A stretch of DNA of 48,212 nt, from positions 1 through 48,212 of the forward strand of contig JABWBO010000028.1 of NCBI GenBank assembly GCA_013360465.1, written 5' to 3'. A program made the translations under genes and the position numbers. Under the pieces are notes generated by a model. The model searched no databases and had not been told where the DNA came from. It saw nothing but the letters and a program-made list of their open reading frames with translations. This DNA comes from Anaerolineae bacterium. GTDB taxonomy: Bacteria; Chloroflexota; Anaerolineae; Aggregatilineales; Phototrophicaceae. How positions within the stretch are numbered: the first letter of the stretch is position 1; the number at the start of each line of letters is the position of its first letter. Shown piece after piece: positions 8,513-48,212 of this stretch.

Positions 8513-8553
8513 AGCGGAAAAGCTGCTTGCTGCCCCGATAAGTTCGGAGAGTT

Positions 8554-9342: not shown

Positions 9343-9429
9343 GTCCGCTCCTTTTTCGCTGCTGCGCATCGGCGCATCGCTGTCGATCAGCGATTAGACG
9401 CCCGGAATCGTCTTTTGCTACACTGCCGT

Positions 9430-9459: not shown

Positions 9460-9494
9460 CCTCATCAAGAGTTCCTGATCAGGAGTTGGTATTC

Positions 9495-11123: not shown

Positions 11124-11192
11124 AGGTTAGCGCGCCGTGCCCTGCCGGCAAGCTCTGGGGGCGCAATTCAGCGATTCAACAAGGAGAATGAC

Positions 11193-12656: not shown

Positions 12657-12666
12657 GTCCGCCGCT

Positions 12667-12696
12667 TTGTTCGCTTTCGCAGAACTGCGCTACACT
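12667..12696 (+). promoter_or_regulatory. Candidate promoter of glgC
   Basis: TTGTTC (12667-12672), 18 bases, TACACT (12691-12696). It lies in the 78-base gap after glgA, 39 bases before the ATG, with AGAGGAG near 12721. It suggests that glgC and the GT2 gene can be transcribed separately from glgA. Confidence 0.4.
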
Positions 12697-12734
12697 CTGT
12701 CGTGAAAAAGATGACCTCATAGAGGAGCATATTT

Positions 12735-27306: not shown

Positions 27307-27380
27307 GGCGTCATGCGCCTGTTGGACAGTTCAAGCGCCTATAATCATAGCCGATTTGCCGCGCGTTGCCGACAGGGCGC

Positions 27381-27396
27381 TATAATGCGCTATACT
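27381..27396 (+). promoter_or_regulatory. Tandem -10-like elements upstream of argF
   Basis: TATAAT (27381-27386) and TATACT (27391-27396) are separated by GCGC, with TTGCCG hexamers at non-ideal spacings upstream. They lie about 60-75 bases before the argF ATG in the divergent intergenic region. The -35 assignment is uncertain. Confidence 0.35.
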
Positions 27397-27454
27397 TAGT
27401 GTCATAGGGTTCATTTGACGATCTCGGTTCACTCACACTAGGCAGCATCCAATC

Positions 27455-28372
27455 ATGCAGCACTTCATCGATCTCGACGACTGGTCAGACGACTCAATAC
27501 GCGATCTGCTGACCCTGGCGAGCCGGCTCAAGGCGGAACAGAAGCAGGGTGGCACCGCGCCGCTGCTGCAAGGCAAACACCTCGCGCTGATCTTTGAAAA
27601 ACCTTCTCTGCGCACCCGCGTTTCTTTTGAAGTCGGCATGTCCCAACTGGGCGGGACCGCCCTGCGCATCGGACCTGACGAGATCGGCATGGGTGCGCGC
27701 GAAAGCATCCCCGACATCGCCCGCGCCATGTCGCGCTACGTGGACGGTATCATGGCGCGCGTCTTCGGTCATGAAAAAGTGGTCGAGCTGGCGCAGTGGG
27801 CGACTGTGCCGGTGATCAACGGCTTGAGCGCGACCCATCATCCCTGTCAGGCGCTGGCGGACGCCATGACCATCATGGAACACTGCGGCGCTGTGCAGGG
27901 CCGGCGGGTGGTGTTCGTGGGCGACGCCAACAACGTGGCGCGTTCGCTGGGGCAGGCGGTCATCAAGCTGGGGGCGCACTTCGTCGTCGCCTCGCCGCCC
28001 GGCTACGGCTTCGACGAAGAGGTGCTGACCTGCCTGGACGGCGACGCCAAAGCTTCGGGCGGTTCGCTGGAAGTGCTTTATGATCCCTTTGAGGCTGTGC
28101 GCGGCGCAGATGTCATCTACACCGATACCTGGGTCAGCATGGGACAGGAAGCTGAGGCGGCACAGCGCATAAAGGCGTTTGACGGCTATCAGGTGAACGC
28201 CGATCTGCTGGCGAAGGCGGGCGGCACGCCGAAAGTCATGCACTGCCTACCGGCGCATCGCGGGCAGGAGATCACCGACGAGGCTGCCGACGGCGCGAAC
28301 TCGGTGATCTTTGACCAGGCGGAGAACCGCCTGCACGCGCAGAAAGCGATCCTGGTCCGGCTGCTCGGTTGA
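27455..28372 (+). CDS. argF: Ornithine carbamoyltransferase
   Basis: Converts ornithine and carbamoyl phosphate to citrulline in arginine synthesis, as a cytosolic trimer. The carbamoyl phosphate loop is SLRTRVSFE at about 50-58, HPCQALAD at about 130-137 holds the conserved His and Gln, the Orn-binding region includes DTWVSMGQE, and HCLPAHRG near 262-269 carries the reactive Cys of the ornithine enzymes. 305 aa is normal. No other arg genes are in the window. Start ATG 27455 fits the family N-terminus (HFIDLDDWS). Confidence 0.95.
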   Translation: MQHFIDLDDWSDDSIRDLLTLASRLKAEQKQGGTAPLLQGKHLALIFEKPSLRTRVSFEVGMSQLGGTALRIGPDEIGMGARESIPDIARAMSRYVDGIMARVFGHEKVVELAQWATVPVINGLSATHHPCQALADAMTIMEHCGAVQGRRVVFVGDANNVARSLGQAVIKLGAHFVVASPPGYGFDEEVLTCLDGDAKASGGSLEVLYDPFEAVRGADVIYTDTWVSMGQEAEAAQRIKAFDGYQVNADLLAKAGGTPKVMHCLPAHRGQEITDEAADGANSVIFDQAENRLHAQKAILVRLLG

Positions 28373-28466
28373 GCGGCTGACGACCTGTCACCAGCAGGCG
28401 GATAATGAGCGCACGACGAGATTAAGTTCATCCACATTCGGCGGGGTCTTGGCTGAGGGCGGAAAT

Positions 28467-30686
28467 ATGCCGGGTAATCGAGAAGCGTACGAACAGGCGA
28501 TGAACGCAGGGCATAATGCCGCCTGGGATCAGGAGTGGCATCTGGCGGTCGCCGCCTACGGTCGGGCGATCCGCGAATTCCCCGACGATCCCGAAGCGCA
28601 CATTCATCTGGGCTTGGGCTTGTACGAGATCGGGCGGCTGGAAGACGCGCTCAAGGTCTACTCGCGGGCGTATCAGCTGTCGCAGAAGAAGGACCCCATC
28701 CCGCTGGAAAAGAGCGCCGATGTGCTGGAAAAGATGGGGCGGCTGCGCGAAGCGGCGCAGCAGTACGCCAACGTCGCCGAACTCTACCTGCTTCAGCGCG
28801 ACCTCGACAAGGCGATCCACAACTGGGAACGCGCCACACACCTGACTCCCGGTTTGATCCCTATTCACATCAAGCTGGCGCAGGCGTACGAGCGCATCGG
28901 CGACACCAAGAAGGCGATCTTCGAATACCTGACGCTCGCCTATAACTTCAAGCGCCTCAACGACATCGACAAAGCCACCAAGGTGGCGCAGCGCGCGCTG
29001 CGTCTGGACAAGGAAAACGCCCAGATCATCAACACGCTGCGCCTGCTAGAGACGGGCGGCGACATCCTGCCGCCGGTGGGCGAAAGCAAACGCGGCGACG
29101 CCGCCGACGAGGACGACCCGCGCCGGCGCATGGAGGAAGCCGAGGACGATCCCCAGGGTCCTCTGGGCGAAGCCGTGAACTATGCCCTGGGCGCGCTGGC
29201 GGTCTTCATCATGGAGAACAGCGACGGCATGAAGATCGCCGCCGATGCCTTGCAGGCGATGGAAGCGCAGCGGCAGCACATGAACGATACGGCGATTGCC
29301 GCCTACCAGCGCGCCGATTCGCGTCTGCGTCAGCCGTCGATCAAGATGAACCTGGGGGCGATGCTGCTGACGCAGAACCGTCCCGCCGACGCCATCAAGG
29401 CGTTCAGCGATGCCGTCGTCCACCCTCAGACATCCTCCGGGGCATACCACGCCCTGGGCAAAGCCTATCTGGCGCTCAAGAAGCCCAAGCAGGGGGTGCG
29501 TTCGCTGATCCAGTGCATCCAGGCGGTTGATCCTACCCCGACGCCGATGACCGAAGTACCGGAACCGACCATCTTCGAGCATCTGATCGACGCGCTGGAC
29601 GGCACGACGGAAGAGAATCTGACGGCGATTGGGCTGCGGCTGGCAGCCACCATCGAGGGCGTCAAATGGCGCGAGAAGCTGGTGGACCTGCGCCGCCAGC
29701 TTGAGGAGACTCACCGCGAACAGGGGATGAAAGGCGTCATCGACTTCCTGATCGCCACCGACAGCGACCAGCTGGCGCGCTCCATCGCCCTGATCGACCG
29801 CTACATGCGCTCCGGCATGCTGACCCTGGCAATCGACGAGGCGCACCGGGCGGTCGAAATCTCGCCGTTCTACCTGCCGGTGCATGTGCGCATGGCAGAG
29901 ATCATGATGCGCGAGGGGCGGGTGCGCAACGCTATCGCCAAATACAACGCCGTCGCCCGTTCGTATATGGCGCGCGGAGAGGATGAACGCGCCGCCGAAA
30001 TCCTGCACAACGTCCTGGAGATCGCCCCGCTCGATGTTCAGGTGCGCGAAAGCCTGATCGAGCTGATGGAAGAAGAGGAACGCTGGGACGAGGCGCTGGA
30101 CCAGTACATCGACCTGGCGGACGTACACCATCAACTGGGCAACTATGATCTGTCGCGCGACACCTACGCGCTTGGCGAGCGCATCGCTTCGCGGGTCAGC
30201 GCCAGCCCGGAGAAGATGGTGCGCATCAAGCACCGCATCGCCGACATCGATCAGATGCGCCTGGATATGCGCAAGGCGGTCAAGGCGTATGAAGAGATCA
30301 TCCAGCTCGCCCCTGAAGACGAGCGGGCGCATCGTATGCTGGTCGATCTCACCTATCGGCAGGGCAATCAGGTCGAGGCGCTGCGTCGGCTGGATAAGCT
30401 GCTGGGCATCTACGCCCGCAGCCGGCAGGTGACCAAGATCACCCAACTCCTCGAAGAACTGGTGACGCTTTATCCGACCGATCCGGGGCTGAGGTCGCGG
30501 CTGTCGGCGATCTACCGCCAGCTGGGGCGCAAGATGGACGCCATCGTCCAGCTTGACGCGCTGGGCGAGCTTCAACTTCAGGCGGGGGCGCACAAGCAGG
30601 CTGCTGAGACGATCCGCCAGATCATCGCGCTGTCTCCGGACAACATCGACGATTACCGGCATCTTCTGACGCAGTTGGGCGGGTGA
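28467..30686 (+). CDS. Tetratricopeptide repeat protein, 739 aa
   Basis: Almost entirely TPR repeats: an N-terminal run (about 15-190) with units such as PDDPEAHIHLGLGLYEIGRLEDAL, a variable acidic linker (about 205-240) and two more runs up to the C-terminus (AVARSYMARGEDERAAEILHNVL, DNIDDYRHLLTQ). No signal peptide or membrane segment, so a cytosolic scaffold is likely. The ATG at 28467 was chosen over the open frame back to 28311 because GAGGG lies upstream and TPR-type sequence starts soon after. It precedes cdaA by 105 bases on the same strand, which may point to a functional link with c-di-AMP signalling, but this is inference. Confidence 0.88.
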   Translation: MPGNREAYEQAMNAGHNAAWDQEWHLAVAAYGRAIREFPDDPEAHIHLGLGLYEIGRLEDALKVYSRAYQLSQKKDPIPLEKSADVLEKMGRLREAAQQYANVAELYLLQRDLDKAIHNWERATHLTPGLIPIHIKLAQAYERIGDTKKAIFEYLTLAYNFKRLNDIDKATKVAQRALRLDKENAQIINTLRLLETGGDILPPVGESKRGDAADEDDPRRRMEEAEDDPQGPLGEAVNYALGALAVFIMENSDGMKIAADALQAMEAQRQHMNDTAIAAYQRADSRLRQPSIKMNLGAMLLTQNRPADAIKAFSDAVVHPQTSSGAYHALGKAYLALKKPKQGVRSLIQCIQAVDPTPTPMTEVPEPTIFEHLIDALDGTTEENLTAIGLRLAATIEGVKWREKLVDLRRQLEETHREQGMKGVIDFLIATDSDQLARSIALIDRYMRSGMLTLAIDEAHRAVEISPFYLPVHVRMAEIMMREGRVRNAIAKYNAVARSYMARGEDERAAEILHNVLEIAPLDVQVRESLIELMEEEERWDEALDQYIDLADVHHQLGNYDLSRDTYALGERIASRVSASPEKMVRIKHRIADIDQMRLDMRKAVKAYEEIIQLAPEDERAHRMLVDLTYRQGNQVEALRRLDKLLGIYARSRQVTKITQLLEELVTLYPTDPGLRSRLSAIYRQLGRKMDAIVQLDALGELQLQAGAHKQAAETIRQIIALSPDNIDDYRHLLTQLGG

Positions 30687-30734
30687 GCGGCGCACCGCGT
30701 CACTCCCTTCGCCAAGCGAGCCTGAATGGGCAGG

Positions 30735-30750
30735 GCATGAGGCCTCATGC
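30735..30750. repeat. 16-base perfect palindrome upstream of cdaA
   Basis: GCATGAGGCCTCATGC, centred 50 bases before the cdaA GTG. It contains one of the very few GGCC sites of this genome part. It may be an operator half-site pair or the stem of a weak terminator. Confidence 0.4.
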
Positions 30751-30791
30751 TCCAAGAGATCATCTGTAGGCGGCAGTAGGATAGGCAAAAC

Positions 30792-31688
30792 GTGGACCTC
30801 GTTTGGGCGCTCAGCAATCTAACTCCCAGCGCGATCATCGATATTTTGCTGGTCGCGGTGGTGTTCTTTGGGCTGAGCTTCCTGATCCGGGCGACTCAAT
30901 CGGCGGCGCTGCTGCGCGGCTTGCTGCTGGCGATTATCCTGGCGGTCGCCGCCGCCAACCTGCTGGGGCTTCCGGCGCTGCGCTGGCTCGTCCAGAACGG
31001 CTTGGGAGCGCTGCTGGTCGCCATCCCGGTGATCTTCCAGCCGGAACTGCGCCGTACCTTCGAGCGCCTGGGACGGGCGGACAGCTTCCTGCGCGACCGC
31101 CAGCAGTACGACACCATCTGGACGCGGGTGATCGACGATGTTTGCCAGGCGGCGGAACGCCTTTCCGAGCGGCGGCATGGCGCGCTGATCGTGCTGGCGC
31201 GCAGTGTCAGCCTGGAGGAGTACGTTCGCACCGGCGTGCCGCTGGATGCTGAGGTCAGCCCGCAGCTGCTGCTGACCGTCTTCTGGCCCAAGACGGAGCT
31301 GCATGACGGCGCGGCGATCATCGGCGAAGACGGCAGGCTGGCGGCGGCGGCGGCGGTGCTGCCGCTGTCGTCGGCGCGGCAGTTGGGCACGCCGAAGCTG
31401 GGCACGCGGCATCGCGCCGCCATCGGCATCAGCGAGGTGAGCGACGCTGTCGTCGTGATCGTCTCGGAAGAGACGGGCAGAATCGCCATCGCCAACGCCG
31501 GGCGGCTGATCCCCAAACTGGACTCCAAGCGGCTGCGGACGATCCTGCTGTCGTTCTATGGACGGGAACATGAGCGGCGCGAAAGCGTCTTCCAGCGGCT
31601 GTGGCATGGGCTGCGTCAGCGGCGCGCCTTTGCGCCCGTCCGCCCGCCGACGCCGCCGCCGCCCGCTGAAGGGATGGAGCTGCACTGA
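30792..31688 (+). CDS. cdaA: Diadenylate cyclase, CdaA type
   Basis: Makes cyclic di-AMP from two ATP. Three N-terminal transmembrane segments (about 10-30, 38-56 and 65-80) precede a DAC domain with LHDGAAII at about 170-177 and RHRAAIGISE at about 204-213, the two signature motifs (DGA and RHR). The 298-aa length fits CdaA. GTG start (30792) fits the family N-terminus. The stop overlaps the ATG of the cdaR gene by one base. Regulates osmolyte and cell-wall homeostasis in the organisms where it is studied. Confidence 0.93.
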   Translation: MDLVWALSNLTPSAIIDILLVAVVFFGLSFLIRATQSAALLRGLLLAIILAVAAANLLGLPALRWLVQNGLGALLVAIPVIFQPELRRTFERLGRADSFLRDRQQYDTIWTRVIDDVCQAAERLSERRHGALIVLARSVSLEEYVRTGVPLDAEVSPQLLLTVFWPKTELHDGAAIIGEDGRLAAAAAVLPLSSARQLGTPKLGTRHRAAIGISEVSDAVVVIVSEETGRIAIANAGRLIPKLDSKRLRTILLSFYGREHERRESVFQRLWHGLRQRRAFAPVRPPTPPPPAEGMELH

Positions 31689-32971
31689 TGCGGCGCGAAG
31701 ACGGGATGCAGCGGACGCTGCTCAACAATGCGCTGTGGTTCGCCGGCTCGCTGGGGCTGGCATTTCTGGTCTGGTTGGTCGCCGTCGTCCAGTCCGACCC
31801 GGTGGAACAGCGCTCCCTGAGTGAGCGCGTGCCGGTCAACGTGACGCCCAATCCCGCGCTGATCATCACCAACCAGAGCGAAGTACTGACCTCGGCGGTG
31901 GTGACCGTGCGCGGACCGCAGTCGGTGATCACGGCGATGACGGCGGACGACATCATCCTGAGCATCGACCTCACGAACCACGTCGCCGGGACATACAGCA
32001 TCCCCATCGAGGCGCTGATCGCCCCGGAAAAACGGGCGTCGGTGGTGCGTATCACCCCGCGCACGCTGAACATCCGCCTGGAAACGCGCCTGACCGAGCT
32101 GAAGCCGGTCCGCGTCGAAATGACCAGCCTGCCCGCTGCCGTTTATGCCGTCGGTGAGCCGCAGATCGATCTCCTTCAGGTCGAAGTGAGCGGACCGGAA
32201 AGCCGGGTCAGCCGGGTCACCGAAGTGGTGGCACGGGTGGCGCTGGAGGATGCGCGGGCGGCATTCGCGGATGATGTGACGCTGGTCGCCGTGGACGCCG
32301 ACGAGCAGGTGATCAGCGGTGTGACTCTCAGCCAGGCGGCGGCGCGTGTTACCGTCGAGGTGCAGCAGCGCGCCGATGTCGCCGAGGTGCGCGTGCTGCC
32401 CAACATCGTCGGCGAGCTGCCCCCCGGCTATGTGCTGACCCCCGATTTCAGCTACACGCCGCAGACCGTGATCGTGCGCGGTCCGCAGGATGTGTTGAGC
32501 GATCTGCCGGGGACTTTCTTCACCGAGCCGATCGACCTTTCCGAGCGGACGGGGAGTTTCGAGGTGATCGCGCTGGTCTCGCTGCCCGATCCTCGCCTGC
32601 TGGTCCTGACCGGCGGCAGCGTGACGGTGCGCGTCGGCGTGGCGGCGCAGCAGGTGACCCGCCAGTTCGAGCGCGTGCCGATCACCCTGATCGGCGTGGA
32701 CCCGGCGCTGCTGTACGCGCTTGCGCCGACGGAAGTCACCGTGCTGGTGACGGGACCCGCGCCGCTGCTGGACGATCTCGATCCGCACGATTTGAGCGCG
32801 CTGGTCGATGTCGGCGGGATGCGGGCGGGGGAAAGCGCGCACATTACGCCGGTGGCGTCCGTCGGTCAGGACAATGCCGCGGTCAGCGCCTCGGTGCTGC
32901 CGGCGGAGATCGACGTGATCGCCCGTGCCGCCGAAGCCACGCCGGAAGCGACGGAAACGGTCGGGGCGTAG
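31688..32971 (+). CDS. cdaR: YbbR-domain protein, CdaA regulator
   Basis: 427 aa with one N-terminal transmembrane helix (about 15-36) and four YbbR-like beta domains: SERVPVNVTP, then RVEMTSLPAAVYAVGEPQID, VRVLPNIVGELPPGYVL, and RVPITLIGVDP, each with the typical GP repeat unit (VRGPQSVI, VSGPESRV, VRGPQDVL, VTGPAPLL). CdaR proteins bind CdaA and modulate its activity from outside the membrane. The usual third gene, glmM, is absent; the operon ends at a hairpin and a convergent gene. Confidence 0.9.
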   Translation: MRREDGMQRTLLNNALWFAGSLGLAFLVWLVAVVQSDPVEQRSLSERVPVNVTPNPALIITNQSEVLTSAVVTVRGPQSVITAMTADDIILSIDLTNHVAGTYSIPIEALIAPEKRASVVRITPRTLNIRLETRLTELKPVRVEMTSLPAAVYAVGEPQIDLLQVEVSGPESRVSRVTEVVARVALEDARAAFADDVTLVAVDADEQVISGVTLSQAAARVTVEVQQRADVAEVRVLPNIVGELPPGYVLTPDFSYTPQTVIVRGPQDVLSDLPGTFFTEPIDLSERTGSFEVIALVSLPDPRLLVLTGGSVTVRVGVAAQQVTRQFERVPITLIGVDPALLYALAPTEVTVLVTGPAPLLDDLDPHDLSALVDVGGMRAGESAHITPVASVGQDNAAVSASVLPAEIDVIARAAEATPEATETVGA

Positions 32972-34614: not shown

Positions 34615-35823
34615 TTAGCGAAGCGCCAGCCCGACCCCCGCGCCGATCAGGATCAGCAGGGTAGCGTTGACCCGCCAGCGCAGCAGCGCCGCCATCGAAC
34701 CGACCGCCAGCGCGACGGCTACCCCGGACGAAAGATCGAACGTCCCGCCCGCCGCGCTTCCGTCGAGCGCACCGAGCGGACGCAGGGCTTCCATAGCCAG
34801 GTTCACCACCGTCACCAGGATCGCCGCGATCACCCCGACGTTGATCCCGCTCAGGAAGGCGCTCAGAAAGGGACTGCGCCGCATCCGGGGGATCAGCGGG
34901 GCGGTCAGGATGACGAGGACGAACGAGGGCAGGAAGATGCCAATCGTCGCGGCGACAGCGCCCGGCACGCCGTCGACCAGATAGCCGACGACCGCCGCCG
35001 TTGTCGAGACCGGTCCGGGCGTGAACTGCCCGATGGCGATGGCGTCGAGCAGTTGGGTGCTGGTCAGCCAGCCAAAGGTGTTCACCAGATCGCCCTGGAT
35101 ATAGGCGAAGAGTACGTAGCCCGTGCCGAACAGCACGCTGCCGATCTTCAGGAAATACCAGAACAGATCGAGCGCGCCCGCCCGGACCGCTTCGCCCGCC
35201 GCCGCCGCTGCCTGGACGATCAGCGGTACGGGGACGATGGCGAACAGTGCCAGGATGTTCGGGTTCAGCCGCGCCGCGATCAGCGCGTAGATCACCCCGG
35301 TCGCCAGCATGACGATCACTTCGGGGATATCCAGCGCGACGATGCTGATCAGCGCTGCCGCAAACATCAGCAGATGCAGGCGCGTCTTGAGGGCGGTCGG
35401 CGCGAGCCGGTAGCCGGCGACCAGGATGATCGCCACGATCACCGGTTTGATGCCCCACAGCGCCGCTTCCACCGCCGGCAGCGCCCCGGTCGCCACGTAG
35501 ATCACGGCGAGCGCCAGCGTCAGCAGGAACGCCGGGAAGATGAAGCAGAATCCGCTCAGGATTGCGCCGGGGATGCCGCGCAGGACGTAGCCGACGTGGA
35601 TCATCACCTCGGTCGAATTGGGACCGGGGATCAGGTTGACGGCGGCGATCAGGTCGAGATAATGCTCGCGGCTGAGCCATCCCCGTCGGGTGACGATCTC
35701 GTCTTCGCCCATCGCCACGTGGGCGACGGGTCCGCCGAAGGCGACCAGACTCATGCGCAGGAAGAGGCGCGCCAGCGCGGTGTATGAGACTCGCCGAGGG
35801 GGGACAGGCGGCGTGGCAGTCAT
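34615..35823 (-). CDS. chrA: Chromate ion transporter (CHR family)
   Basis: 402 aa with about ten membrane segments and a duplicated CHR domain: the first half has FGGPVAHVAMGEDE, RRGWLSREHYLDLIAAVNLIPGPNSTEVMIHVGY, the second a diverged copy (GTGYVLFAYIQGDLVNTFGWLTSTQLLDAIAIGQFTPGPVSTTAAVVGYLV). Known members export chromate by antiport with protons or sulfate; others in metagenomes are only annotated so. The ATG overlaps the stop of the histidine kinase by four bases (35820-35823), so the two genes are translationally coupled. Its substrate could therefore be something the kinase senses. Confidence 0.88.
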   Translation of the reverse strand: MTATPPVPPRRVSYTALARLFLRMSLVAFGGPVAHVAMGEDEIVTRRGWLSREHYLDLIAAVNLIPGPNSTEVMIHVGYVLRGIPGAILSGFCFIFPAFLLTLALAVIYVATGALPAVEAALWGIKPVIVAIILVAGYRLAPTALKTRLHLLMFAAALISIVALDIPEVIVMLATGVIYALIAARLNPNILALFAIVPVPLIVQAAAAAGEAVRAGALDLFWYFLKIGSVLFGTGYVLFAYIQGDLVNTFGWLTSTQLLDAIAIGQFTPGPVSTTAAVVGYLVDGVPGAVAATIGIFLPSFVLVILTAPLIPRMRRSPFLSAFLSGINVGVIAAILVTVVNLAMEALRPLGALDGSAAGGTFDLSSGVAVALAVGSMAALLRWRVNATLLILIGAGVGLALR

Positions 35824-37511
35824 CGGGATTGCTCCGGCGTGCTGTCGGATCGCGCGGTGAAATGCAGGGGCAGGGTGATCCGAAACTCACTGCCCCGGTT
35901 CAGGCTGCTGCTGACGGCGATGTCTCCGCCGTGCGCCCTGGCGATCTTGCGGGCGATGGTCAGCCCCAGCCCGAAGCCGCCGTCACCGCCGCGCGCCGGG
36001 TCGCCCCGGTAGAAGTCGTCGAAGATGTGCGGCAGGATGTCTTCGGCGATTCCGGGACCATTGTCGCTGACGCTGATCATCACGCTGTCTTTGGCGCACG
36101 AAGCAGCGACGCTGATGACGCTGCCCTCCGGTGTGTAGCTCAAGCCGTTCATGATGAGGTGGCGCATCATTCGCTTGATCTGCGTGGGATCAGCCAGGAT
36201 ACTGATCGGATCGACACAGGGCATGAGCGTGAGCGTCTGATGTTTGCGCAGCGCCTCGTTCTGGGCGTCGCTGACCGACTGGCTCAGCAGGTCATGCAGG
36301 TCGGTCAGGCGGAAGCGAAAATCACCCGCTTCGGCTTTGTCGAGTCGGGACATGCTGATCAGGTCCTCCAGCAGGCGCTGCACGTGCGCCGCCTGCGCTT
36401 GCAGGACCTGGGTGTGGGTGCGCTGGCGTTCCGGGTTATCCGCTAGTTTGCCGATCAGGTAGATGCTGGTATTGATGACCGACAGCGGCGTGCGCAGATC
36501 GTGCGAGATGTCGCTGATGAAGCGCTGCAGGATGCGGACTTTTTCGCGTTCGACCATCAGCTCGATCTGCCGCTGCTGCTCCAGCTTGTGCGCTGTCAGA
36601 TCGCGCAGGGTGACGATCCTCACCCGTTCCCCGTTGTAGAAGTGGCTTCGTCCGTTGAGTTCGACCGTCAGAACTTCCCCGCTCTTGTGCAGAATCCCGG
36701 CTTCAAAGGGCCCTTCGATCTCGTCATGGTAGCGCCGGAGTACTTCGTCTGCGCTTTCTGGGGCGACCAGATCGAGAATTTCTGTGCCGATCACTTCATC
36801 GGCGGAATAGCCGAACATCTGCTCGACCGCCGGGTTGACCAGCAGGATCGTCCCGCTTTTGTGGATGACGATGCCTTCCTGGGCTGCTTCCAGGAGGATA
36901 GTGGTGCGCTGGCGCTCCTGCTCCAGGGTGCGCCCCTGCTCTTCGATCACCCGATCGGCGTGGTCGCGCAGGGTCGCGGCGTAGGTGAGCATCAGCAGGA
37001 CCAGCGGATCGAGGTAGAGCAGAGTCCCCAAGCCCTGGGGATTCCAGGGAGAGATCAGGATCGCCGCGCTGCCGGCGATCAGGCTCAGAATTGCCACCCG
37101 GATCATCGCCGCGCGGCGAAAGAGGAGATAGGCGCTGGTGGCGCAGGTCAGATTCCAGGCGGCGAGGACCTGCGGCGGAATGGGGTTCATCACCCACAGG
37201 ATAGGGGGTAGGATGGCGATGGTGATCCCCAGCGTATTCCTGACCGCGGCAGCGTAGCCCGCGCGCACCAGCAGCGGCGCCGCCGCGCACAGGGTCGCCG
37301 TGATGAAGACGATCGGATCATGCACCGAGACGAAGCGATCCAGCACTACCCCGCCGAACAGGGCGGTGGCAGCGAAGACCAGCAGCCCGTTCAACAGCAG
37401 GATTTGCGAGCGGGCGTGCCGGTCTGTGACCGATGCCGGTGCGTCCAGCAGGCGGAGCGTCTTCTGGATGACGGATTGAATTAGTGGGGATGCCAGCCAA
37501 CGCCTGACCAT
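35820..37511 (-). CDS. PAS sensor histidine kinase
   Basis: 563 aa from ATG 37511; a TTG start at 37535 is possible but a minus-strand TATAAT at 37544-37549 would leave almost no leader for it. N-terminal part has about five to six membrane segments (about 30-180), then a PAS domain (ILLEAAQEGIVIHKSGTILLVNPAVEQMFGYSADEV), then HisKA with ISHDLRTPLSVI (phospho-acceptor His) and HATPase with MRHLIMNGLSYTPE, VSDNGPGIAE and GFGLGLTIARK. Cytosolic kinase, inner membrane sensor. No response regulator gene lies nearby, so it is an orphan here. Coupled to chrA. Confidence 0.9.
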   Translation of the reverse strand: MVRRWLASPLIQSVIQKTLRLLDAPASVTDRHARSQILLLNGLLVFAATALFGGVVLDRFVSVHDPIVFITATLCAAAPLLVRAGYAAAVRNTLGITIAILPPILWVMNPIPPQVLAAWNLTCATSAYLLFRRAAMIRVAILSLIAGSAAILISPWNPQGLGTLLYLDPLVLLMLTYAATLRDHADRVIEEQGRTLEQERQRTTILLEAAQEGIVIHKSGTILLVNPAVEQMFGYSADEVIGTEILDLVAPESADEVLRRYHDEIEGPFEAGILHKSGEVLTVELNGRSHFYNGERVRIVTLRDLTAHKLEQQRQIELMVEREKVRILQRFISDISHDLRTPLSVINTSIYLIGKLADNPERQRTHTQVLQAQAAHVQRLLEDLISMSRLDKAEAGDFRFRLTDLHDLLSQSVSDAQNEALRKHQTLTLMPCVDPISILADPTQIKRMMRHLIMNGLSYTPEGSVISVAASCAKDSVMISVSDNGPGIAEDILPHIFDDFYRGDPARGGDGGFGLGLTIARKIARAHGGDIAVSSSLNRGSEFRITLPLHFTARSDSTPEQSR

Positions 37512-37543
37512 CAAGGAAGTTCCAGGGTATGACAACAGCGCTC

Positions 37544-37549
37544 ATTATA
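37544..37549 (-). promoter_or_regulatory. Candidate -10 of the histidine kinase / chrA operon
   Basis: TATAAT on the minus strand about 33 bases before the ATG at 37511; the -35 region is poor. Together with the plus-strand TATACT at 37638-37643 (about 43 bases before the aldolase ATG) it forms a divergent promoter region. Confidence 0.4.
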
Positions 37550-37637
37550 GCCTTGTGCTGAAACCTGAGAAAACGAGGAGGAATTGCGGTGAAAAAAACC
37601 TGATAGATCACAGGTGGAAACGCCGCCGCCTTTTCTC

Positions 37638-37643
37638 TATACT
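37638..37643 (+). promoter_or_regulatory. Candidate -10 of the aldolase gene
   Basis: TATACT, with predicted start near 37650 and the ATG at 37686. No good -35 at 17 bases upstream. Confidence 0.35.
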
Positions 37644-37685
37644 CGTGTGCGTTTCATGAAGGCGAGTGTACAAAGAGGTGTACTC

Positions 37686-38795
37686 ATGGTATTTGCCGCC
37701 ATCAAGCAGCAGACATCGACCTACAACACGATTGACAAAATCGCCGAGGCGCTTGGCAGCCAGGCGGACTATCTCCTCAAGCATACCAGCCAGACCATCG
37801 ATAAAGCCGACCTGCATCTGCCAGGACCGGACTTCATCGACCGCGTCTGGTTCAGCAGCGACCGCACCCCGCGCGTCCTGCGCAGCTTGCAAGCCATGTT
37901 CGATCACGGACGCCTGGGCGGAACCGGCTATCTGAGCATCCTGCCGGTGGACCAGGGCATCGAACATGCGGCTGGGGCTTCCTTCGCGCCCAACCCGATC
38001 TACTTCGACCCGGAGAACATCGTCAGGCTGGCGATTGAGGGCGGCTGCAACGCCGTCGCTTCGACGTTCGGCGTGCTGGGGTCGGTGGCGCGCAAGTATG
38101 CCCACCGCATCCCTTTCATGGTGAAGATCAACCACAATGAGCTGCTGACCTATCCCAACCAGTTCGACCAGGTGATGTTCGGCAAGGTCAAGCAGGCGGC
38201 GGATATGGGCGCGGTCGCGGTCGGCGCGACGGTCTATTTCGGATCGCCGGAAAGCACCAAACAGCTGGTGCAGGTGGCGGAAGCCTTCTACCAGGCGCAT
38301 GAACTGGGGCTGGCGACCGTGCTGTGGTGCTACATGCGCAACCCCGGCTTCAAAGTCAACGGCAAGAACTACGAGACCGCCGCCGACCTGACCGGGCAGG
38401 CGAATCATCTGGGCGTCACCATCGAGGCAGATATCGTCAAGCAGAAGCTGCCGACGATCAACGGCGGCTACAAGGCGCTCAATACCGGTTCTTCCGGCTA
38501 TGGCAAGCTGGACGAGCGCATCTACAGCCAGCTCAGCAGCGATCATCCTATTGACATGACCCGCTACCAGATCGCCAACGGCTACATGGGGCGGGCGGGC
38601 TTGATCAGCAGCGGCGGCGCGAGCGGCGACAATGACTTCGCCGAAGCCTTGCAGACGGCGGTGATCAACAAGCGCGCCGGCGGCATGGGCTTGATCAGCG
38701 GGCGCAAGGCGTTCCAGCGCCCGATGAAAGAAGGCGCGGCGCTCCTCAACGCCATTCAGGATGTCTACCTCTGCGAAGAGGTGACGGTGGCGTAG
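37686..38795 (+). CDS. fbaB: Class I fructose-bisphosphate aldolase (DhnA type)
   Basis: Cleaves fructose-1,6-bisphosphate to DHAP and glyceraldehyde-3-phosphate by a Schiff-base mechanism. Recognisable sites include [22 protein letters not shown], the [12 protein letters not shown] strand where a lysine sits, [13 protein letters not shown], and the C-terminal [17 protein letters not shown] and [12 protein letters not shown]. This is the DhnA/FbaB archaeal-type class I aldolase common in bacteria for gluconeogenesis. ATG 37686 has GAGGTG eight bases upstream; the open frame back to 37614 is not needed. The 3' end overlaps the convergent tag gene by 31 bases. Confidence 0.92.
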
Positions 38796-39352
38796 CGAAA
38801 ACAATCGACCGTGTGGTCGTTGATCATCCCGGTCGCCTGCATCATGGCATAGCAGATCGTCGGTCCGACGAACGTGAAGCCGCGTGACTTGAGCGCCTTG
38901 CTCATCGCGCGGCTTTCCGCTGTCTCTGCCGGAAGATCGGAAAGCACCGCCCAGGCATTCTGAAGCGTGGTCCCCTCGACGAACGACCAGAGAAAATCGG
39001 AAAAGCTGCCCAGGTCCTCCTGAACCCGCAGGACGCAGCGGGCGTTGTTGATAGCAGAGGCGATCTTCGCCCGGTTGCGCACGATGCCGGCGTCTGCCAG
39101 CAGGGCGGCGGCTTTGGCGTCGTCGTAGCGCGCCACGACTGCCGGGTCGAAGCCGTCAAAGGCTTTCCGGTAGTTCTCGCGCTTACGCAGGATGGTCAGC
39201 CAGCTCAACCCCGCCTGCGCGCCTTCCAGGCACAGCCGCTCGAACAGGCGGCGGTCGTCGCTGCGGATCGGCACGCCCCATTCCTCGTCGTGATAGCGCA
39301 CGTAGAGCGGCTCGCCCAGGTTGACCCAGGCGCAGCGCGTCGGTTCAGTCAT
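38765..39352 (-). CDS. tag: 3-methyladenine DNA glycosylase I
   Basis: Removes 3-methyladenine from alkylated DNA. 195 aa. Family marks: [22 protein letters not shown] with the zinc-binding Cys and His, [22 protein letters not shown], and the C-terminal [30 protein letters not shown] with the remaining zinc ligands (His, Cys). Its stop lies inside the aldolase 3' end on the opposite strand (31-base overlap). Confidence 0.93.
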
Positions 39353-39426
39353 GGCTTGTCCCTATCCGGTTCGTGCAAGCTGTCGTTTCATCGTTACGAT
39401 TCTAGCGCAGGGCGGCGCGCCGGCGC

Positions 39427-41613: not shown

Positions 41614-41801
41614 AGTGAATCACAGATTGCACTCCATTTGGCAGTTCGCCGGGGGCTAAAGCACCCCGGCTAAGCATACAGACTACCCCACTGAAGGGGA
41701 TAAAGGAGCGCCTTTAGTGCGCTGGTCTTCACTTAGCCGATGGGCTTTAGCCCTCGGCGGCGCTCGCGAATCAAGCATGATGGGTCAGAATCGTGATTCA
41801 C
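41614..41801. mobile_element. MITE-like imperfect palindromic element, 188 bp
   Basis: Terminal inverted repeats AGTGAATCAC (41614-41623) and GTGATTCACT (41792-41801) are perfect over 10 bases. Inside are further paired arms: 41647-41662 with 41744-41759 (15 of 16), CGGCTAAG (41667-41674) with CTTAGCCG (41732-41739), and small stems CCCC/GGGG near 41690 and TAAAGG/CCTTTA near 41705. The whole is one nested palindrome with no open frame. The GGGGCTAAAG/CTTTAGCCC core is of a type dispersed in Chloroflexota and related genomes. It ends within a truncated HNH gene. No flanking target-site duplication is obvious. Confidence 0.6.
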
Positions 41802-41877
41802 TGAAACCGCAGTACTCGCAGCAGCCGCCAGCACGTTCCAGCGTGGAGTCGCGCAGCTTCGCCGGCACATAGCTCAT
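41785..41877 (-). pseudogene. 5' stump of an HNH endonuclease gene
   Basis: Thirty codons from ATG 41877 give MSYVPAKLRDSTLERAGG followed by CCEYCGF, which is how many HNH nucleases begin (zinc-knuckle CxxC after an ERAGG helix). The frame then runs into the inverted repeat of the palindromic element (from 41801) and stops within it (41785-41787). The rest of the HNH domain (the His-Asn-His part) is not found beyond the element. So the gene was probably cut by insertion or deletion. The longer frame back to 42045 overlaps the reductase gene and is not supported. Confidence 0.6.
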
Positions 41878-41938: not shown

Positions 41939-43165
41939 TCACGCCGTCGCCATCGATGCGCGCAGCCGTCCCGTCTCCACATACTGCGCCAGGAACGTCC
42001 GCACCAGCGCGCCATCGACCGTGGCGCAGCGCAGCCCCGATCCATCCAGCGCGCTCTGCGTCAGCTTCGTGCCCAGCGCGTAATAGGCGGTTTCGCTCAC
42101 GCCCAGCATGCGCCCGGCAAACTGGATGTGGAAGAAGGGCAGCAGCGGGTGCAGCGGGTTGGTCATCGGGTCTTCGTGTTCCTCGATGGCGTCTACCCAT
42201 TCGTTGAACGGCAGCTTGCGCACGGGATAGCCCGCCTCGATCACCGTGTCCATGATGTTGCTCCAGGTGATCGGGTCCGGGTTGAGGATGTGGAAGACTT
42301 TGCCGACCGATTCCGGCTGGCGCGACAGATGCACGATGGAACGCGCCGCGTAATCGACCGGGGTCATGTCCATCGCGTTCTTGATATCTGGTCCATAGCC
42401 CGCCTGAATGCAGCCGATCAGGATGCGGGCGACGAAATCGTCTTCGTTGGAGCGCCCATTGCGGCTGTCCCCGACGATCAAGCCGATACGGTGGATAGTG
42501 ACCGGAATGCCCCGGTCGGCGGCATGGCGCACCACCCGCTCGGAGACGTATTTGGTCTGGAAGTAGCCGACATCCGGGCACTTTTCGGCATCCAGCGCGT
42601 CCGTCTCCAGACCGCCCTGGGGGATCGCACCGGGGACGGATTTGAAGCCAAGCAGGATGCCCAGCGACGACACGAAGTGGAACGGTTTGGCGCGCCCGGT
42701 CGTCGCCAGCCGCAGCGCCTCGACCGTGCCGCCCACGTTCGCCGTGCGCAGGAATTCGTAAGGGGCGATGTAGCTCAGCTTGCTGCCGACGTGATAGATC
42801 ACCTCGACCCTGCGCGCCAGCGCCGCGAAATCGTCGGACGACAAGCCCAGCAGGGGGTGCTTGAGATCGCCGATGACCGGCGTGATGCGCTCGGCATAAG
42901 CCTCTTTCCACAGCCAGTAGTGCGCCAGGTTCTTGCGAATACGCGCCATGCCGTGAGCGACGTCATCCGCCCGCACCAGGGCGTACAGATGCGCCGGGGT
43001 GGTGTCCAGCAGTTCTGCCATCACATAGGCTGCGACGAAGCCGGTCGCCCCGGTGATGAAGATGCGCGCCGGGTCGGCGGCAAAGTCAACCGGTTCGGAC
43101 AGTGGTTGAATTTCTTCTGGGAGGATGGCGTCCTCATCTAGAAAACTGGCGGTCATGCCTGTCAT
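41939..43165 (-). CDS. Thioester reductase-like NAD(P)-dependent enzyme
   Basis: 408 aa, extended short-chain dehydrogenase of the NAD-binding-4 (thioester/fatty acyl reductase) family. Rossmann motif TGATGFVAAYV at about 38-48, HVGSKLSYIAPYEFLRTANVGGT in the middle, HFVSSLG, and the YFQTK active-site Tyr-x-x-x-Lys. These enzymes reduce acyl-CoA or acyl-carrier-protein thioesters to aldehydes or alcohols. It is divergent from the patatin and wax-ester synthase genes, where a fatty-acyl reductase would supply the fatty alcohol. ATG 43165 has GGAGCG eight bases upstream; the ATG at 43156 is the alternative. Confidence 0.82.
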   Translation of the reverse strand: MTGMTASFLDEDAILPEEIQPLSEPVDFAADPARIFITGATGFVAAYVMAELLDTTPAHLYALVRADDVAHGMARIRKNLAHYWLWKEAYAERITPVIGDLKHPLLGLSSDDFAALARRVEVIYHVGSKLSYIAPYEFLRTANVGGTVEALRLATTGRAKPFHFVSSLGILLGFKSVPGAIPQGGLETDALDAEKCPDVGYFQTKYVSERVVRHAADRGIPVTIHRIGLIVGDSRNGRSNEDDFVARILIGCIQAGYGPDIKNAMDMTPVDYAARSIVHLSRQPESVGKVFHILNPDPITWSNIMDTVIEAGYPVRKLPFNEWVDAIEEHEDPMTNPLHPLLPFFHIQFAGRMLGVSETAYYALGTKLTQSALDGSGLRCATVDGALVRTFLAQYVETGRLRASMATA

Positions 43166-43337
43166 TACGCTCGCTCCATAATCATCTTGGCGGTTCTCTT
43201 CTTTTCATTATGAAGAGGAAGGAAAATCACCGTTGATGCTGATGATCGCTGTTTGATATGACATTGATCCGTAATTGCGCCGTGATACCGAGACTAGAAT
43301 AAAGACATGAAGTTATTCGCCCAAAGAGGCTTTGTTG

Positions 43338-44390
43338 ATGCGCCGCGAACTTCCGTTGTTGCAGAAAAAACCGGGCGTCTCCCTCGTTTTGAGCGGCGGC
43401 GCGACGAAAGCCTTCTATTTCCACATCGGCGTCCTGAAGGTCCTGGACCTGGAGAACATCTCTTCAATCGTCGGGACCAGCGCCGGGGCGGTCGCCGGGA
43501 CTCTGGTTGCCAGCGGCGTTGAAGCGGATGCGCTGGTCGCCTCGCTGTATCAGAAATCGGTGTACGTCCCGCGCATCGATACGGTCGTGAAGCGGTTGAC
43601 GGCGGCGATGGTCTTTCAGCCGGCGTTCGGACACATGGCGAGCCAGGGCGCGCATACGCTCTTCGCCGGGCTGCGCATGATGCTGACGCTGCCCACCGTG
43701 CATCGCGGCGATGTCGTCTCGGAAATCCTCGACCGGCTGATCCTCAGCCAGCGCCACGCGCCGAGCTTCTTCAACGCCTCGGAACTGGAAAACCTGATGC
43801 GGGCGCTGCTGCCTTCCGACGATTTCCACGACACACCCATCGATCTCTACGTGACCGCTACCAGCCTTGACGAACACAAGCGCGCCGTCTTCAACGCCCA
43901 CGTCGATTATGACGACGGCGTCAACGCCTTCATGACCGATGTGCCGCTGCACCGTGCCGTGCTGGCGTCGAGCGCCGTGCCGGGCATGTTCGAGCCGGTC
44001 AAGATCAAGGACCGTTACTATATCGATGGAGAGGTGCGCCAAACGCTGTCGATGGACATCGGCTTGGCACTGGCGGATACGGTGATCTGCTCGCACACCT
44101 ATCACCCGCTGTACATGTCCAACGGCGAGACCGTGCGCGATGAAGGCTGGTACAACATCGTCAAGCAGTCGGTGCATATCGCCCTCTACGAACGCATCCT
44201 GGGCTGGCGCGATGTGTATGAGCAGCAGTTTCCCGAAAAGCGCATGATCTGGATCGAACCCGACCCGGAGGACCGCGAATTCTTCCTCGCGCCCGAATTC
44301 TCGTTCCGTCCAGAGCTTCAGCGTCGTCTGGTCGAAAGCGGCGAAAGGGCAGCGCATCGCGCCCTGGATAAGGCGTTTGCAAGGACTTGA
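43338..44390 (+). CDS. Patatin-like phospholipase
   Basis: 350 aa from ATG 43338 (GAGG ten bases upstream; an in-frame TTG precedes it). The N-terminal LVLSGGATKAFYFHIGVL is the oxyanion glycine motif, VGTSAGAVAG contains the nucleophile Ser48, and RYYIDGEVRQT carries the Asp of the Ser-Asp dyad (DG). A lipid acyl hydrolase for phospholipids or storage esters. It stands 96 bases before the wax ester synthase/DGAT gene on the same strand and is probably co-transcribed. No signal peptide, so cytosolic or at lipid droplets. Confidence 0.9.
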   Translation: MRRELPLLQKKPGVSLVLSGGATKAFYFHIGVLKVLDLENISSIVGTSAGAVAGTLVASGVEADALVASLYQKSVYVPRIDTVVKRLTAAMVFQPAFGHMASQGAHTLFAGLRMMLTLPTVHRGDVVSEILDRLILSQRHAPSFFNASELENLMRALLPSDDFHDTPIDLYVTATSLDEHKRAVFNAHVDYDDGVNAFMTDVPLHRAVLASSAVPGMFEPVKIKDRYYIDGEVRQTLSMDIGLALADTVICSHTYHPLYMSNGETVRDEGWYNIVKQSVHIALYERILGWRDVYEQQFPEKRMIWIEPDPEDREFFLAPEFSFRPELQRRLVESGERAAHRALDKAFART

Positions 44391-44486: not shown

Positions 44487-47162
44487 ATGCGCGCGTATTC
44501 TGACATCCTGGGTTCGGTCGATTCAGCGTTTTACTACGTGGAGCGTTCCGAGACGCCCATGAATATCGGGGCGCTGACGATTTTCGACGGCAGCCTTGAT
44601 CTCGATGAGTTCATCCGCTTCATTGAATCGCGCATTCCGCTCTGTCCGCGCTACGCGGAGCGCATTGTCCAGGCTCCCCTGAACCTCGGCGCGCCGACCT
44701 GGATACGCGACCCGAATTTTTACGTCAGCGACCACATCCGCCGCGTAGAGCTGGAGTCGCCAGAGGACCTGGGGGCGCTGCGCCGCCTGGCGGGGCGGTT
44801 AGCCGCCGAACCGCTGGATCGGGGACGTCCGTTGTGGGAAATCATCCTCATTGATGGGCTGCCCGGTCAGACGGCGATGCTCTTCAAGGTCCATCACTGC
44901 ATGGTCGATGGTCTGGCGGCGGTCGATCTCTTCAATTTCCTGCTCGATGTCGCCCCGCGTCAGGTCCCGCAGGATCGCCGCTTCATCAACAGCGCCCCCG
45001 CGCTGCCCAACCCGTTCTCACTGCTTTCGGACTCGCTCACGCGCGATCTCACCCACCAGGTCAGGCTGCTGCGCAAGGTCGGTACGGAAGCGGTCAAAGT
45101 GTTCGGCAGCCTGACGCGCGATCAGGAACGGCTCAACATGCTGGTCGCCGCCGCTCATCTGATCAGCAACAACGTCAAGCCGATTCAGAAGCTGCCGATC
45201 AACGGCAAAAATACCGGCGAACAGCGGCTGGTGTGGGCGGAATTCGCCCTTGACGACATCCACGCCATCCGCGCCAAGCGCAAGGCATCGGTCAACGAAG
45301 TCATGCTGACCATCATGGCGCGCGCCGTCGAACACTATGTCAACGATCACGGCGGGACGCGCCAAGCCTTCCTGCGCGCGCTCGTCCCGGTGAATGTGCG
45401 CACGGCAGAGGAAAAAGGGGATTACGGCAACCGCATCTCCGTCCTGCCCATCGATCTGCCGTTCAACGTGCCGGACCCGCTGGAACACCTCGCCGCCGTC
45501 ATGAAATACAGCAAGGTGATGAAGGATTCCGGGCTTGCCTATTCGATGGATCTGATGCTGACCCTGCCCTCGCTGCTGCCGGCGGTCATGCACAAGCCGA
45601 TCTGGGGACTGGCTCCTGTCGCCTTCTCGCTGCTGGCGCACACCTGGTGTACCAATGTCGCCGCTCCGCCGATTCCGGTCTATCTGCTCGGTCACGAACT
45701 CAAGCAGGTCTACGGTTTCTTCCCGCTCAACCCCTCGATGGGGCTGGCGAGCGTGATCGTCAGCTACAACGGTCACATCACGCTGACCATGGTGGCGGAT
45801 GAAGGCATCCTGGTGGACGCCGATGTCCTCGGCGTCTATGCGCAGTCGGTCTTCGGCGAACTCTGCCGCGCCGCCCATGACGACGGCCTGGTGGTCTTCG
45901 CCCGCATGGATTCCAACCGCGCCCACGACGACCTCCACCAGGCTCATCCCGACTGGTTCGCCCGCGACGCCAGCGGCCGTCCCCACAAGGCCGGCGAGCT
46001 TTTCGTCACCTGCATCAACGGCCCCTATTACGAGCAGCACATTCCGGCCATCCTGCGCGAGATCGCCGGACGCTACCGCCCCGAGGGCTTCACGGACAAC
46101 AGCTGGAGCGGCCTCGGCCGCGGCACGATCTGCCATTGCGACAACTGCCGCCGGAAGTTTCGCGAACGCTCCGGCCGGGAACTGCCGGCCCGCAAGAACT
46201 GGGACGATCCGGCTTACCGCGAGTGGATTCGCTGGAACTACGACCGCCGGCTGGAGATCTGGGATCTCAACAACCGCATCACGCGGGAGGCGGGCGGGCC
46301 GGACTGCGTCTGGTCGGGGATGATCAGCGGCTCGGTCGGCGCCGCCTCGGCGAGTTTTCGCGACCTGAAGGAGATCTGCCGCCGGGCCGACATCATCATG
46401 CTCGATCACCAGTCGCGCCGGGACGAGAGCGGCTTTCAGCACAACGGCGAGGCCGCCAAACGGCTGCACGGTCTCCTCGGATGGGAGAAGCTGATCCCGG
46501 AGAGCATGGCCCTGTACCAGGCGGGCCGCCCGGCCTTCCGCCTCGCCAGCAAGCCGGCTCCCGAGGCACGCCTGTGGATGCTCGACGGCATCGCGGGCGG
46601 CCTGCAGCCGTGGTGGCACCACGTCGGCGCCTACCACGAGGATCGCCGCATGTACCGGACGGCCGAGCCGATCTATCGCTGGCACGAACAGCACGCCGCC
46701 TATCTCACGGACCGGCAGCCGATCGCTTCGATTGGCGTCGTCTGGTCGCAACCCAATCAGGATTTCTTTGGACGCGATGAGGCCGACACGCTGGTCGAAT
46801 CCCCCTGGCGCGGCATCACGCAGGCGCTGATCCGCGGGCGCATCCCGTATCTGCCGGTGCACGCCGACGACCTCGATCGCGCGGCACCGGGGCTGGCCGC
46901 GCTGATCCTGCCGCGCTCGGGCCTGGGCCACAAGCACGGCATCGTGCTCGGCAACCTGGTCGGGCTGATCGATTCCGATTACCAGGGGCAGATCTTCGTC
47001 TCCACCTGGAACCGCGGCCACGAGCACTTCACGATCCAGCCGCTCGAGCGCATCGCTCAGCTGGTGGTGGTGCCGGTGCTGCAGGTGGCCTTCAACGTGG
47101 TCGATTCCTTCGATGAAAGCGAGCGCGGTGCGGCCGGCTTCGGCAGCACGGGCAAGCACTGA
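44487..47162 (+). CDS. WS/DGAT acyltransferase fused in frame to foreign sequence (likely chimeric)
   Basis: One 891-codon frame that is three unrelated proteins. Residues 1 to about 462: bifunctional wax ester synthase/acyl-CoA:diacylglycerol acyltransferase, with [11 protein letters not shown], the catalytic HHCMVDG at 136-142 and TNVAAPP near 390; almost full length (usual about 470). Residues about 464-806: middle and C-terminal part of a hypothetical glycosyl hydrolase (GHL6 type; [37 protein letters not shown]), missing its start and end. Residues about 809-891: the last 83 residues of a dUTPase, with [29 protein letters not shown] and [13 protein letters not shown] (motifs 2-5). The joints are listed separately. 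The WS/DGAT part belongs with the patatin gene; the rest belongs to other genomes. ATG 44487 with AGGGGG 12 bases upstream. Confidence 0.85.
45860..45890. other. Joint 1: WS/DGAT to GHL6-like segment
   Basis: The WS/DGAT pattern ends at FGELCRAA (near 45,873) and the GHL6 pattern begins at [17 protein letters not shown]. The first GGCC after about nine kilobases appears at 45885-45888, and the site is frequent from there on, so base composition changes within about 15 bases of the protein change. Confidence 0.85.
46896..46920. other. Joint 2: GHL6-like segment to dUTPase
   Basis: The last GHL6-type residues are GLAALILP (the usual continuation is a loop of the same domain), and dUTPase motif 2 begins at PRSGLG (codon 809, 46911). 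Both protein families have a hydrophobic strand ending in Leu-Pro here, so the break cannot be placed better than a few codons. Confidence 0.8.
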
Positions 47163-47590
47163 TGCGTCACCCGGGCATTCCCACCGGCGTGCATGTGCTG
47201 CTCGAAAGCGGCGGCCAGGTGCTGCTGATGCGGCGGGCCGGCACCGGCTTTTTCGATGGGCTCTACAGCCTGCCCGGCGGGCACGTGGAGGAGGGCGAAT
47301 CCCTGCGCGCCACTGCGGTGCGCGAGATGCGCGAGGAGCTCGGCATCGAGCTGGCCGAAGATGCCCTGGCGGTGCTCGGGGTGGTGCATCGGCGCTCCGA
47401 CACCAACCGCATCGATTTCTTCCTGCGGGCGCAGGCCTGGCTGGGCGAGCCGCGGATCGCCGAGCCGAACAAGTGCGACGACCTCCGCTGGTTTGCCCTG
47501 GGCGCCCTGCCGGAGGCCATCGTGCCTTATGTGCGCGATGCCCTCGCGGCCGGCGCCGGGCCGTGGATCGCCGAGTCCGGCTGGGGCTGA
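47162..47590 (+). CDS. NUDIX hydrolase, 142 aa
   Basis: The Nudix box is complete: GHVEEGESLRATAVREMREE followed by LGI, matching GX5EX7REUXEEXGU. Small cytosolic pyrophosphohydrolase of nucleoside diphosphate derivatives. Start ATG overlaps the dUTPase stop by one base (TGATG at 47160-47164), so in its own genome this gene is coupled to dut, and both clean nucleotide pools. A classical terminator follows. High GGCC use, unlike the main contig part. Confidence 0.92.
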   Translation: MRHPGIPTGVHVLLESGGQVLLMRRAGTGFFDGLYSLPGGHVEEGESLRATAVREMREELGIELAEDALAVLGVVHRRSDTNRIDFFLRAQAWLGEPRIAEPNKCDDLRWFALGALPEAIVPYVRDALAAGAGPWIAESGWG

Positions 47591-47663: not shown

Positions 47664-48212
47664 TTACTCCGGTACGGCGAGCACGCCGTTGCCGAAGCTG
47701 ATGCTGTCGGCGCCGGCCGGCGTGGCCGCGATCGGTGGCAGGTTGGCGGCGCTGATGTCCGGTGCCGAGCCAGCCGTGCCGCCCCGCGGCGTGGTGCGCA
47801 CCACTTGCGAGGCGGGCAGCGCGGTGCCGTTCTTGAGGTGGGCGTACATCAGGTCCATCCCCTGGTTGAAATACACGTGCAGCGGCACGAGGCGGGTGTC
47901 GTAGCCCGGCAGCGCGGCGTTGTCGATGAAGGCGTCGAAATGCTGGGCGTTGGTGACCTCGTAATAACGCAGCCGGCTGGCGGCGCCGTCGGCCTGGCGG
48001 CTCATCGCGTAGTAGGCGCGGGAGGCGTGGTTGACCGGGATCAGGGTGTCCGAGCGGCCCGACACGATGATCGTCGGCTTGCCACCAAGCCGGCCTTCCA
48101 TCTGGACCTCGCGGATGCCCTGGCGGACCCGCTCCGACTGGGCGAGCAGGGTACCGGTGAGCGCCGCGCCGCTGACCGGGTCGGTGCCGGTGACGAGGGC
48201 CCGGGCGCACAG
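47664..48212 (-). CDS. 3-hydroxybutyrate oligomer hydrolase, C-terminal part
   Basis: The minus frame is open through the right window edge (LCARALVTGTD at its upstream end), so the N-terminus is missing; the ATG at 48101 is internal. 182 residues remain. The sequence GKPTIIVSGRSDTLIPVNHASRAYY, EVTNAQHFDAFID, HVYFNQGMDLMYAHL and LPASQVVRTTPRGG match the C-terminal part of D-(-)-3-hydroxybutyrate oligomer hydrolases (EC 3.1.1.22), which degrade polyhydroxybutyrate oligomers; the catalytic His is in AQHFDAF. The family is characteristic of Betaproteobacteria such as Burkholderia and Rhodocyclaceae, which fits the foreign origin of this end. Confidence 0.88.
   Translation of the reverse strand: MCARALVTGTDPVSGAALTGTLLAQSERVRQGIREVQMEGRLGGKPTIIVSGRSDTLIPVNHASRAYYAMSRQADGAASRLRYYEVTNAQHFDAFIDNAALPGYDTRLVPLHVYFNQGMDLMYAHLKNGTALPASQVVRTTPRGGTAGSAPDISAANLPPIAATPAGADSISFGNGVLAVPE

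Follow-up and report, generated by a model that had tools for sequence, protein, structure and literature searches.

De Bruijn graphs can join disparate sequences that share k-mers, which makes chimeric contigs possible, and some assemblers begin with a small k (PMC7299287). A literature search on false gene fusions in MAGs returned no relevant report. Among lipid-synthesis enzymes, WS/DGAT proteins with a C-terminal SCP2 domain (PF02036) have been published for Bacteroidota (PMC10351704). The locus described here touches on both. The window is the whole stretch of DNA that was analysed, which is the entire contig C221 (48212 bases) of G000, a genome of 256 contigs. Near its end, one open frame joins parts of three enzymes. 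There is very little doubt that this fusion is an artefactual chimera, made in assembly or in the library, as an earlier note on this DNA had proposed. The native continuation lies on another contig, and the nearest relatives of the added pieces are foreign.

The open frame and its domains

The frame extends from 44487 to 47162 on the plus strand and encodes 891 aa, from ATG to TGA, with no internal stops. Pfam identified WS_DGAT_cat at residues 8-272 (168.1 bits) and WS_DGAT_C at residues 314-458 (73.4 bits), both over the cut-off. The GHL6 match covers residues 455-535 and profile positions 45-128 of 132, so its beginning is absent. The dUTPase match covers residues 800-889 and begins only at position 43 of the 129-position profile, which it then follows to the end (43-129); the first third is absent. 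NCBIfam found WS/DGAT at 8-462 and dut at 801-891, in agreement with the Pfam division. A single three-part frame is therefore present, as had been described.

The WS/DGAT portion comprises residues 1-463. Its native part (44487-45849) contains both domains, and at 45102-45875 the DNA is 94% identical to the gene of G006, a sister genome of the same genus. The middle of a GHL6-type hydrolase occupies 45876-46886, and the C-terminal 82 residues of a dUTPase, with the stop, occupy 46914-47162. The latter keeps the PRSGLGH stretch. The earlier note held that each part lacks the ends of its family. This stands for the GHL6 part, which lacks both ends, and for the dUTPase part, which lacks the N-terminal part, so not every domain of the frame is complete. 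It does not stand for the WS/DGAT domains, which are complete; what is missing there is a linker and an SCP2-like domain. Two more genes follow on the contig. A NUDIX hydrolase (47162-47590, plus strand; Pfam NUDIX 2.7e-22) is an open reading frame whose start overlaps the dUTPase stop, and the C-terminal part of a 3HB-oligomer hydrolase (47664-48212, minus strand; Pfam 3HBOH 1.1e-76, profile 521-688 of 688) is cut by the contig end. The G+C content is 62.1% in the WS/DGAT piece, 68.1% in GHL6, 65.9% in dUTPase, 71.6% in NUDIX, and 70.9% in 3HBOH; a shift in base composition at the first joint had been reported.

The native gene and its continuation

The left flank of the window is native in the stretches compared, with 26000-32956 being 95% identical to G006:C106 and 34643-39356 being 91% identical to G006:C134. 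The native upstream neighbour of the WS/DGAT gene encodes a patatin-like lipase (43332-44390, plus strand; Pfam Patatin 3e-25). In DNA matches, a patatin-like gene also adjoins the WS/DGAT gene in G001, G004, G012, G013, and G014.

Window 45102-45875 corresponds to G006:C1:1-774 at 94% DNA and 98% protein identity, and the sequences part after 45875. Past this point the WS/DGAT gene of G006 has 283 further codons, which encode a linker rich in Pro and Ala and then an SCP2-like domain at the C-terminus. When the DNA of this G006 region was used to search G000, C221:45701-45875 matched (96%), and the remainder was found at C30:28970-30365 on the minus strand (86%). C30 (30368 bases) terminates within the WS/DGAT linker. 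When reversed, it is colinear with G006:C1 910-2265 (86%) and 6029-13405 (94.8%), with G006:C1 1-774 falling on C221. The two are colinear, not identical. G006:C1 2265-6029 (~3.8 kb), right behind a small Lys-rich gene, has no counterpart in C30, so one of the species has either gained or lost this DNA. By G006 coordinates, the gap between the native end of C221 and the end of C30 is ~130 bases, and its G+C content in G006 is 78.5%. There was no second place in G000 that matched the 891-aa protein at E <= 0.001.

Because the missing 3' end of the WS/DGAT gene sits at the very end of C30, the native continuation of C221 is, judged by sequence, C30, found in the same genome. Since C221 truly continues there, its last ~2.3 kb are almost certainly foreign. 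That joint 1 is false is nearly certain.

The relatives agree with this. When the whole 891-aa protein was used as the query, a WS/DGAT match was found in 14 of 60 relatives, and none extends beyond query residue 465. Matches to the GHL6 and dUTPase parts in the 60 are separate from WS/DGAT and weak (29-40% identity). A search for the intact WS/DGAT in related genomes had been suggested, and all 13 relatives whose gene could be followed as far as its stop end in another C-terminus, without GHL6; the fourteenth (L015) is cut by a contig end and lies outside this count. The C-terminal domain was judged by eye in L009, L012, and L013, and the other 10 relatives and C30 were placed in an alignment. 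The fusion itself was found in none of the 60 relatives and in none of 61 GHL6 loci.

Several other features of the region were observed. Window 41939-44390 contains a candidate thioester-reductase-type fatty acyl reductase and the patatin-like lipase, beside the WS/DGAT gene. Together, these three would suit a locus for the storage of neutral lipids. Downstream of the WS/DGAT gene is a gene for a small Lys-rich protein of ~121 aa (L005:1734-2099, with a counterpart in L106, on C30). It has no Pfam match over the cut-off, and our impression is that it resembles a phasin or lipid-droplet coat protein. Behind it, L005:2220-2274 matches 14 more places in G000 at 82-97% and is probably a dispersed short repeat. 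Window ~41614-41807 and 35884-36548 have matches (roughly 68-97%) on numerous contigs in related genomes, and are probably dispersed short repeats of the genus. The bin of G000 has an estimated contamination of 4.27%, and a search for SSU rRNA in G000 gave no match (the search detects 9 of 14 controls, so this absence is weak).

The C-terminus of the intact gene

The SCP2-like domain, of a lipid-transfer type, follows the linker at L106:1611-2018 (C30), at L005:1216-1623, and in 12 other relatives. A profile built from 11 WS/DGAT C-termini matched the PDB chains 2cx7 ('Sterol carrier protein 2') and 1wfr at 1.3e-39. Its remaining six matches, all to short segments in designed proteins, were no better than 8.7e-4. 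Pfam PF02036 (SCP2) matched 9 of the 11 C-termini weakly at E up to 1, with a best value of 3.8e-05. The C30 copy alone had no Pfam match to SCP2, and none of the 11 had an NCBIfam match to SCP2. The intact gene of the window's genus thus encodes a WS/DGAT with a C-terminal SCP2-like domain.

The joints

Joint 1 lies inside 45850-45875, and joint 2 inside about 46887-46913, close to the positions given before. Similar short strings at the joints had also been noted, and these can be recognized as words that fit either gene.

At joint 1 (plus strand), the word encodes FGELCRAA, the last native WS/DGAT residues; G006 has FGELCRAAG. The GHL6 family typically has RDLFGEL..AAHEDG at this place. LCRAA occurs in 20 of the 56 loci compared (out of 61; L079, L085, L092, L093, and L094, with a match that is partial or not from residue 1, were omitted), and FGELCRAAH occurs in many. 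The GHL6 relative L068 and the window share 25 identical bases (45850-45874). The closest GHL6 relative, L035, and the window share 20 (45858-45877). This comparison of base runs covered four of five loci.

At joint 2 (plus strand), the word encodes about PGLAALILP, which fits both GHL6 and dUTPase, the latter as read in P. aeruginosa. GHL6 genes have, for example, LSALILPN here, and the readings include AGLSALILPNVGAMS (L035) and NLAALILPNLGLMT (L043). On the GHL6 side, the longest exact run in a single relative is 14 bases among 37 of the 61 loci, which were mapped without gaps (L053 and L062 look shifted). On the dUTPase side, the longest runs in four dUTPases are 8-12 bases, and three of the four lie beyond the joint, at 46920-46931. 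The exact shared word at joint 2 is inferred from this comparison. No source genome was found for the foreign pieces, so both words were estimated from relatives; the nearest of these are 85% (GHL6) and about 73-75% (dUTPase) identical in amino acids. A counterpart contig for joint 2, like C30 for joint 1, was not found. Joint 2 is nonetheless very likely false: the pieces are truncated, none of the 61 loci has this combination, and the two proteins have a short peptide in common.

The preservation of frame at both joints had been considered surprising, with a chance of one in nine. A control does not uphold this. Long reading frames of G000 (178) were compared with 203 from the 61 GHL6 loci, which fits the sources of joint 1, and 8 homologous pairs of 36134 were dropped. 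The frames were picked mechanically (longest non-overlapping, at least 200 aa) and some may not be genes; one of 20 sampled contigs (L136) had a G+C of 0.0, and reads as N. Of the exact sense words of 14 bases, 776 of 1202 had the same phase in both frames; for words of 16 bases this held in 75 of 107 cases, and for 18 bases in 8 of 10, where chance would give one in three. With antisense words included, the counts were 776 of 2242, 75 of 192, and 8 of 16. A chimera with two words keeps frame at both joints in roughly 40-65% of cases if the words are sense, and in about 12-25% counting antisense. In-frame joints are thus expected, since most words shared by unrelated coding sequences have the same phase in both. 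The frame is preserved here because each shared word is translated into one and the same short peptide in the two proteins.

The foreign pieces

In the genome collection, 61 loci are related to the GHL6 piece. The closest relative comes from a Verrucomicrobia MAG (85% aa), and the remaining relatives are mostly other Verrucomicrobia, Bacteroidota, and Acidobacteriota. The piece corresponds to about residues 113-449 of a full-length relative of 749 aa (L035:2665-4911). Gene extents were determined for 55 of the 61 loci. In the 53 with a closed stop, a median of 646 residues (range 137-710) lies between the point where the piece starts and the stop, and the piece in the window has about 337. All 61 loci were searched for neighbours, and no sequence like WS/DGAT, dUTPase, NUDIX, or 3HBOH was found up to 3 kb on each side. 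Within G000, two other matches to the GHL6 profile are weaker and below the family cut-off. The genome thus has distant cousins of the gene of this piece and no second copy of it.

For the source of the tail, the search covered records of plasmids and phages. The dUTPase piece has 78% DNA identity to the dut gene of P. aeruginosa, and other Pseudomonadota match too (plasmid records). Its relatives were found in 1588 phage records, the best being 75% identical among the matches listed. The only other match to the dUTPase profile in G000, on C155, has 23.6 bits, just above the cut-off of 22, and is likely to be a dCTP deaminase-like protein. Four plasmid relatives of the 3HBOH piece, from Paraburkholderia, Microvirga (two), and Pseudomonas, are 41-51% identical. 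Plasmid relatives of the NUDIX piece are at most about 43% identical among the matches listed, and Streptomyces accounts for 81 of 163 records. This piece does not point to Pseudomonadota and is of no help in placing the source of the tail. The order dut-NUDIX-3HBOH was seen in none of five plasmid or phage records; it was judged in three of them, the other two being unannotated over the stretch. A comparison of the taxonomy of the parts had been proposed, and it does separate them. WS/DGAT belongs to the window's own genus, GHL6 is nearest to Verrucomicrobia, and dUTPase and 3HBOH point to Pseudomonadota (plasmid records).

Origin of the chimera

Joining at small k in the assembly graph is the best-supported mechanism, and an assembler with a small k, rather than a library chimera, probably made the joins. 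The smallest k is commonly 21-27. C221 is native to about base 45875, stopping inside the WS/DGAT gene. The real 3' part, with the linker, the SCP2-like domain, and the small Lys-rich gene, opens C30 when it is read in reverse, past the ~130-base gap. The G+C content of the gap stretch, 78.5% in the sister genome, may have cost coverage. The gap would then not be crossed, and the assembly would walk through a word of ~24-26 bases into the GHL6-type gene of another bacterium, nearest to Verrucomicrobia. About 1 kb on, a second word, possibly up to about 27 bases, would lead into the dut-NUDIX-3HBOH region of a third source.

The same artefact could have come about by template switching in library amplification at short shared words, with the chimeric molecules then assembled cleanly. 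The GC-rich matching stretches at both joints would suit this, and the final contig would look identical. However, two switches within about 1 kb would be needed, and the 1.3 kb of foreign DNA that follows would have to reach the coverage of a contig; small-k joining would be simpler. Template switching is possible and rather unlikely.

It is very improbable that a strain of this organism truly acquired the foreign DNA within its WS/DGAT gene, by insertion or recombination, with C30 belonging to another strain. In favour of this, C221 forms one contig with an intact frame, and the bin may contain a mixture of strains. Against it, the foreign pieces are incomplete and differ in their nearest relatives, C30 stops within the gap, and G000 has no second match to the protein.

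It has equally little probability that joint 1 alone is false, with GHL6 and dUTPase truly fused in the bacterium from which that piece came. No contig end that pairs with joint 2 was found, as would be the case for such a fusion. The dUTPase nevertheless lacks the first 42 profile positions, no dUTPase is near any of the 61 GHL6 loci, and the GHL6 piece has about 337 residues, against a median of 646 up to the stop in its relatives.

That the foreign 2.3 kb came into a strain of this organism through two real and recent recombination events at short shared words, yielding an in-frame chimeric gene, is barely credible. A working natural three-domain enzyme, for which the uninterrupted frame would speak, is practically excluded, as the earlier note had foreseen, by the missing ends of the GHL6 and dUTPase parts, the absence of the fusion in every relative searched, and the native C-terminus on C30.

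The window is a clean example of a binned contig in which a multi-domain gene appears that is false. A frame that stays open over the joints is no argument for a natural fusion, because most words that coding sequences share are in phase. C221 should be trimmed of its last 2.3 kb and linked to C30. When MAGs are mined for new domain fusions, such joints should be checked against a sister genome.

Comparison with known systems

The WS/DGAT-SCP2 architecture is of a known kind, since it is in print for Bacteroidota. The order in the window's genus is the same as in the proteins described there, WS/DGAT and then the SCP2-like domain. Lengths differ: five plus-strand relatives have 667-748 aa between the beginning of the match and the stop, and the proteins given in that report (PMC10351704) have ~613 aa. 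Compared with the hypothetical glycosyl hydrolases of GHL6 (PF14871), the fragment in the window is 85% identical to a full-length member and is without both ends. Compared with dUTP diphosphatase (PF00692), the piece has the C-terminal two thirds of the profile and is without the N-terminal part.

As in the chimeric contigs described in PMC7299287, more than one genome is present in one contig, and the genomes are joined where k-mers coincide. The account of chimeric contigs in that paper treats mainly related species and sequencing errors, whereas the genomes here look unrelated. Unlike the cases described there, both joints of C221 keep the frame, and a gene caller sees one long gene.
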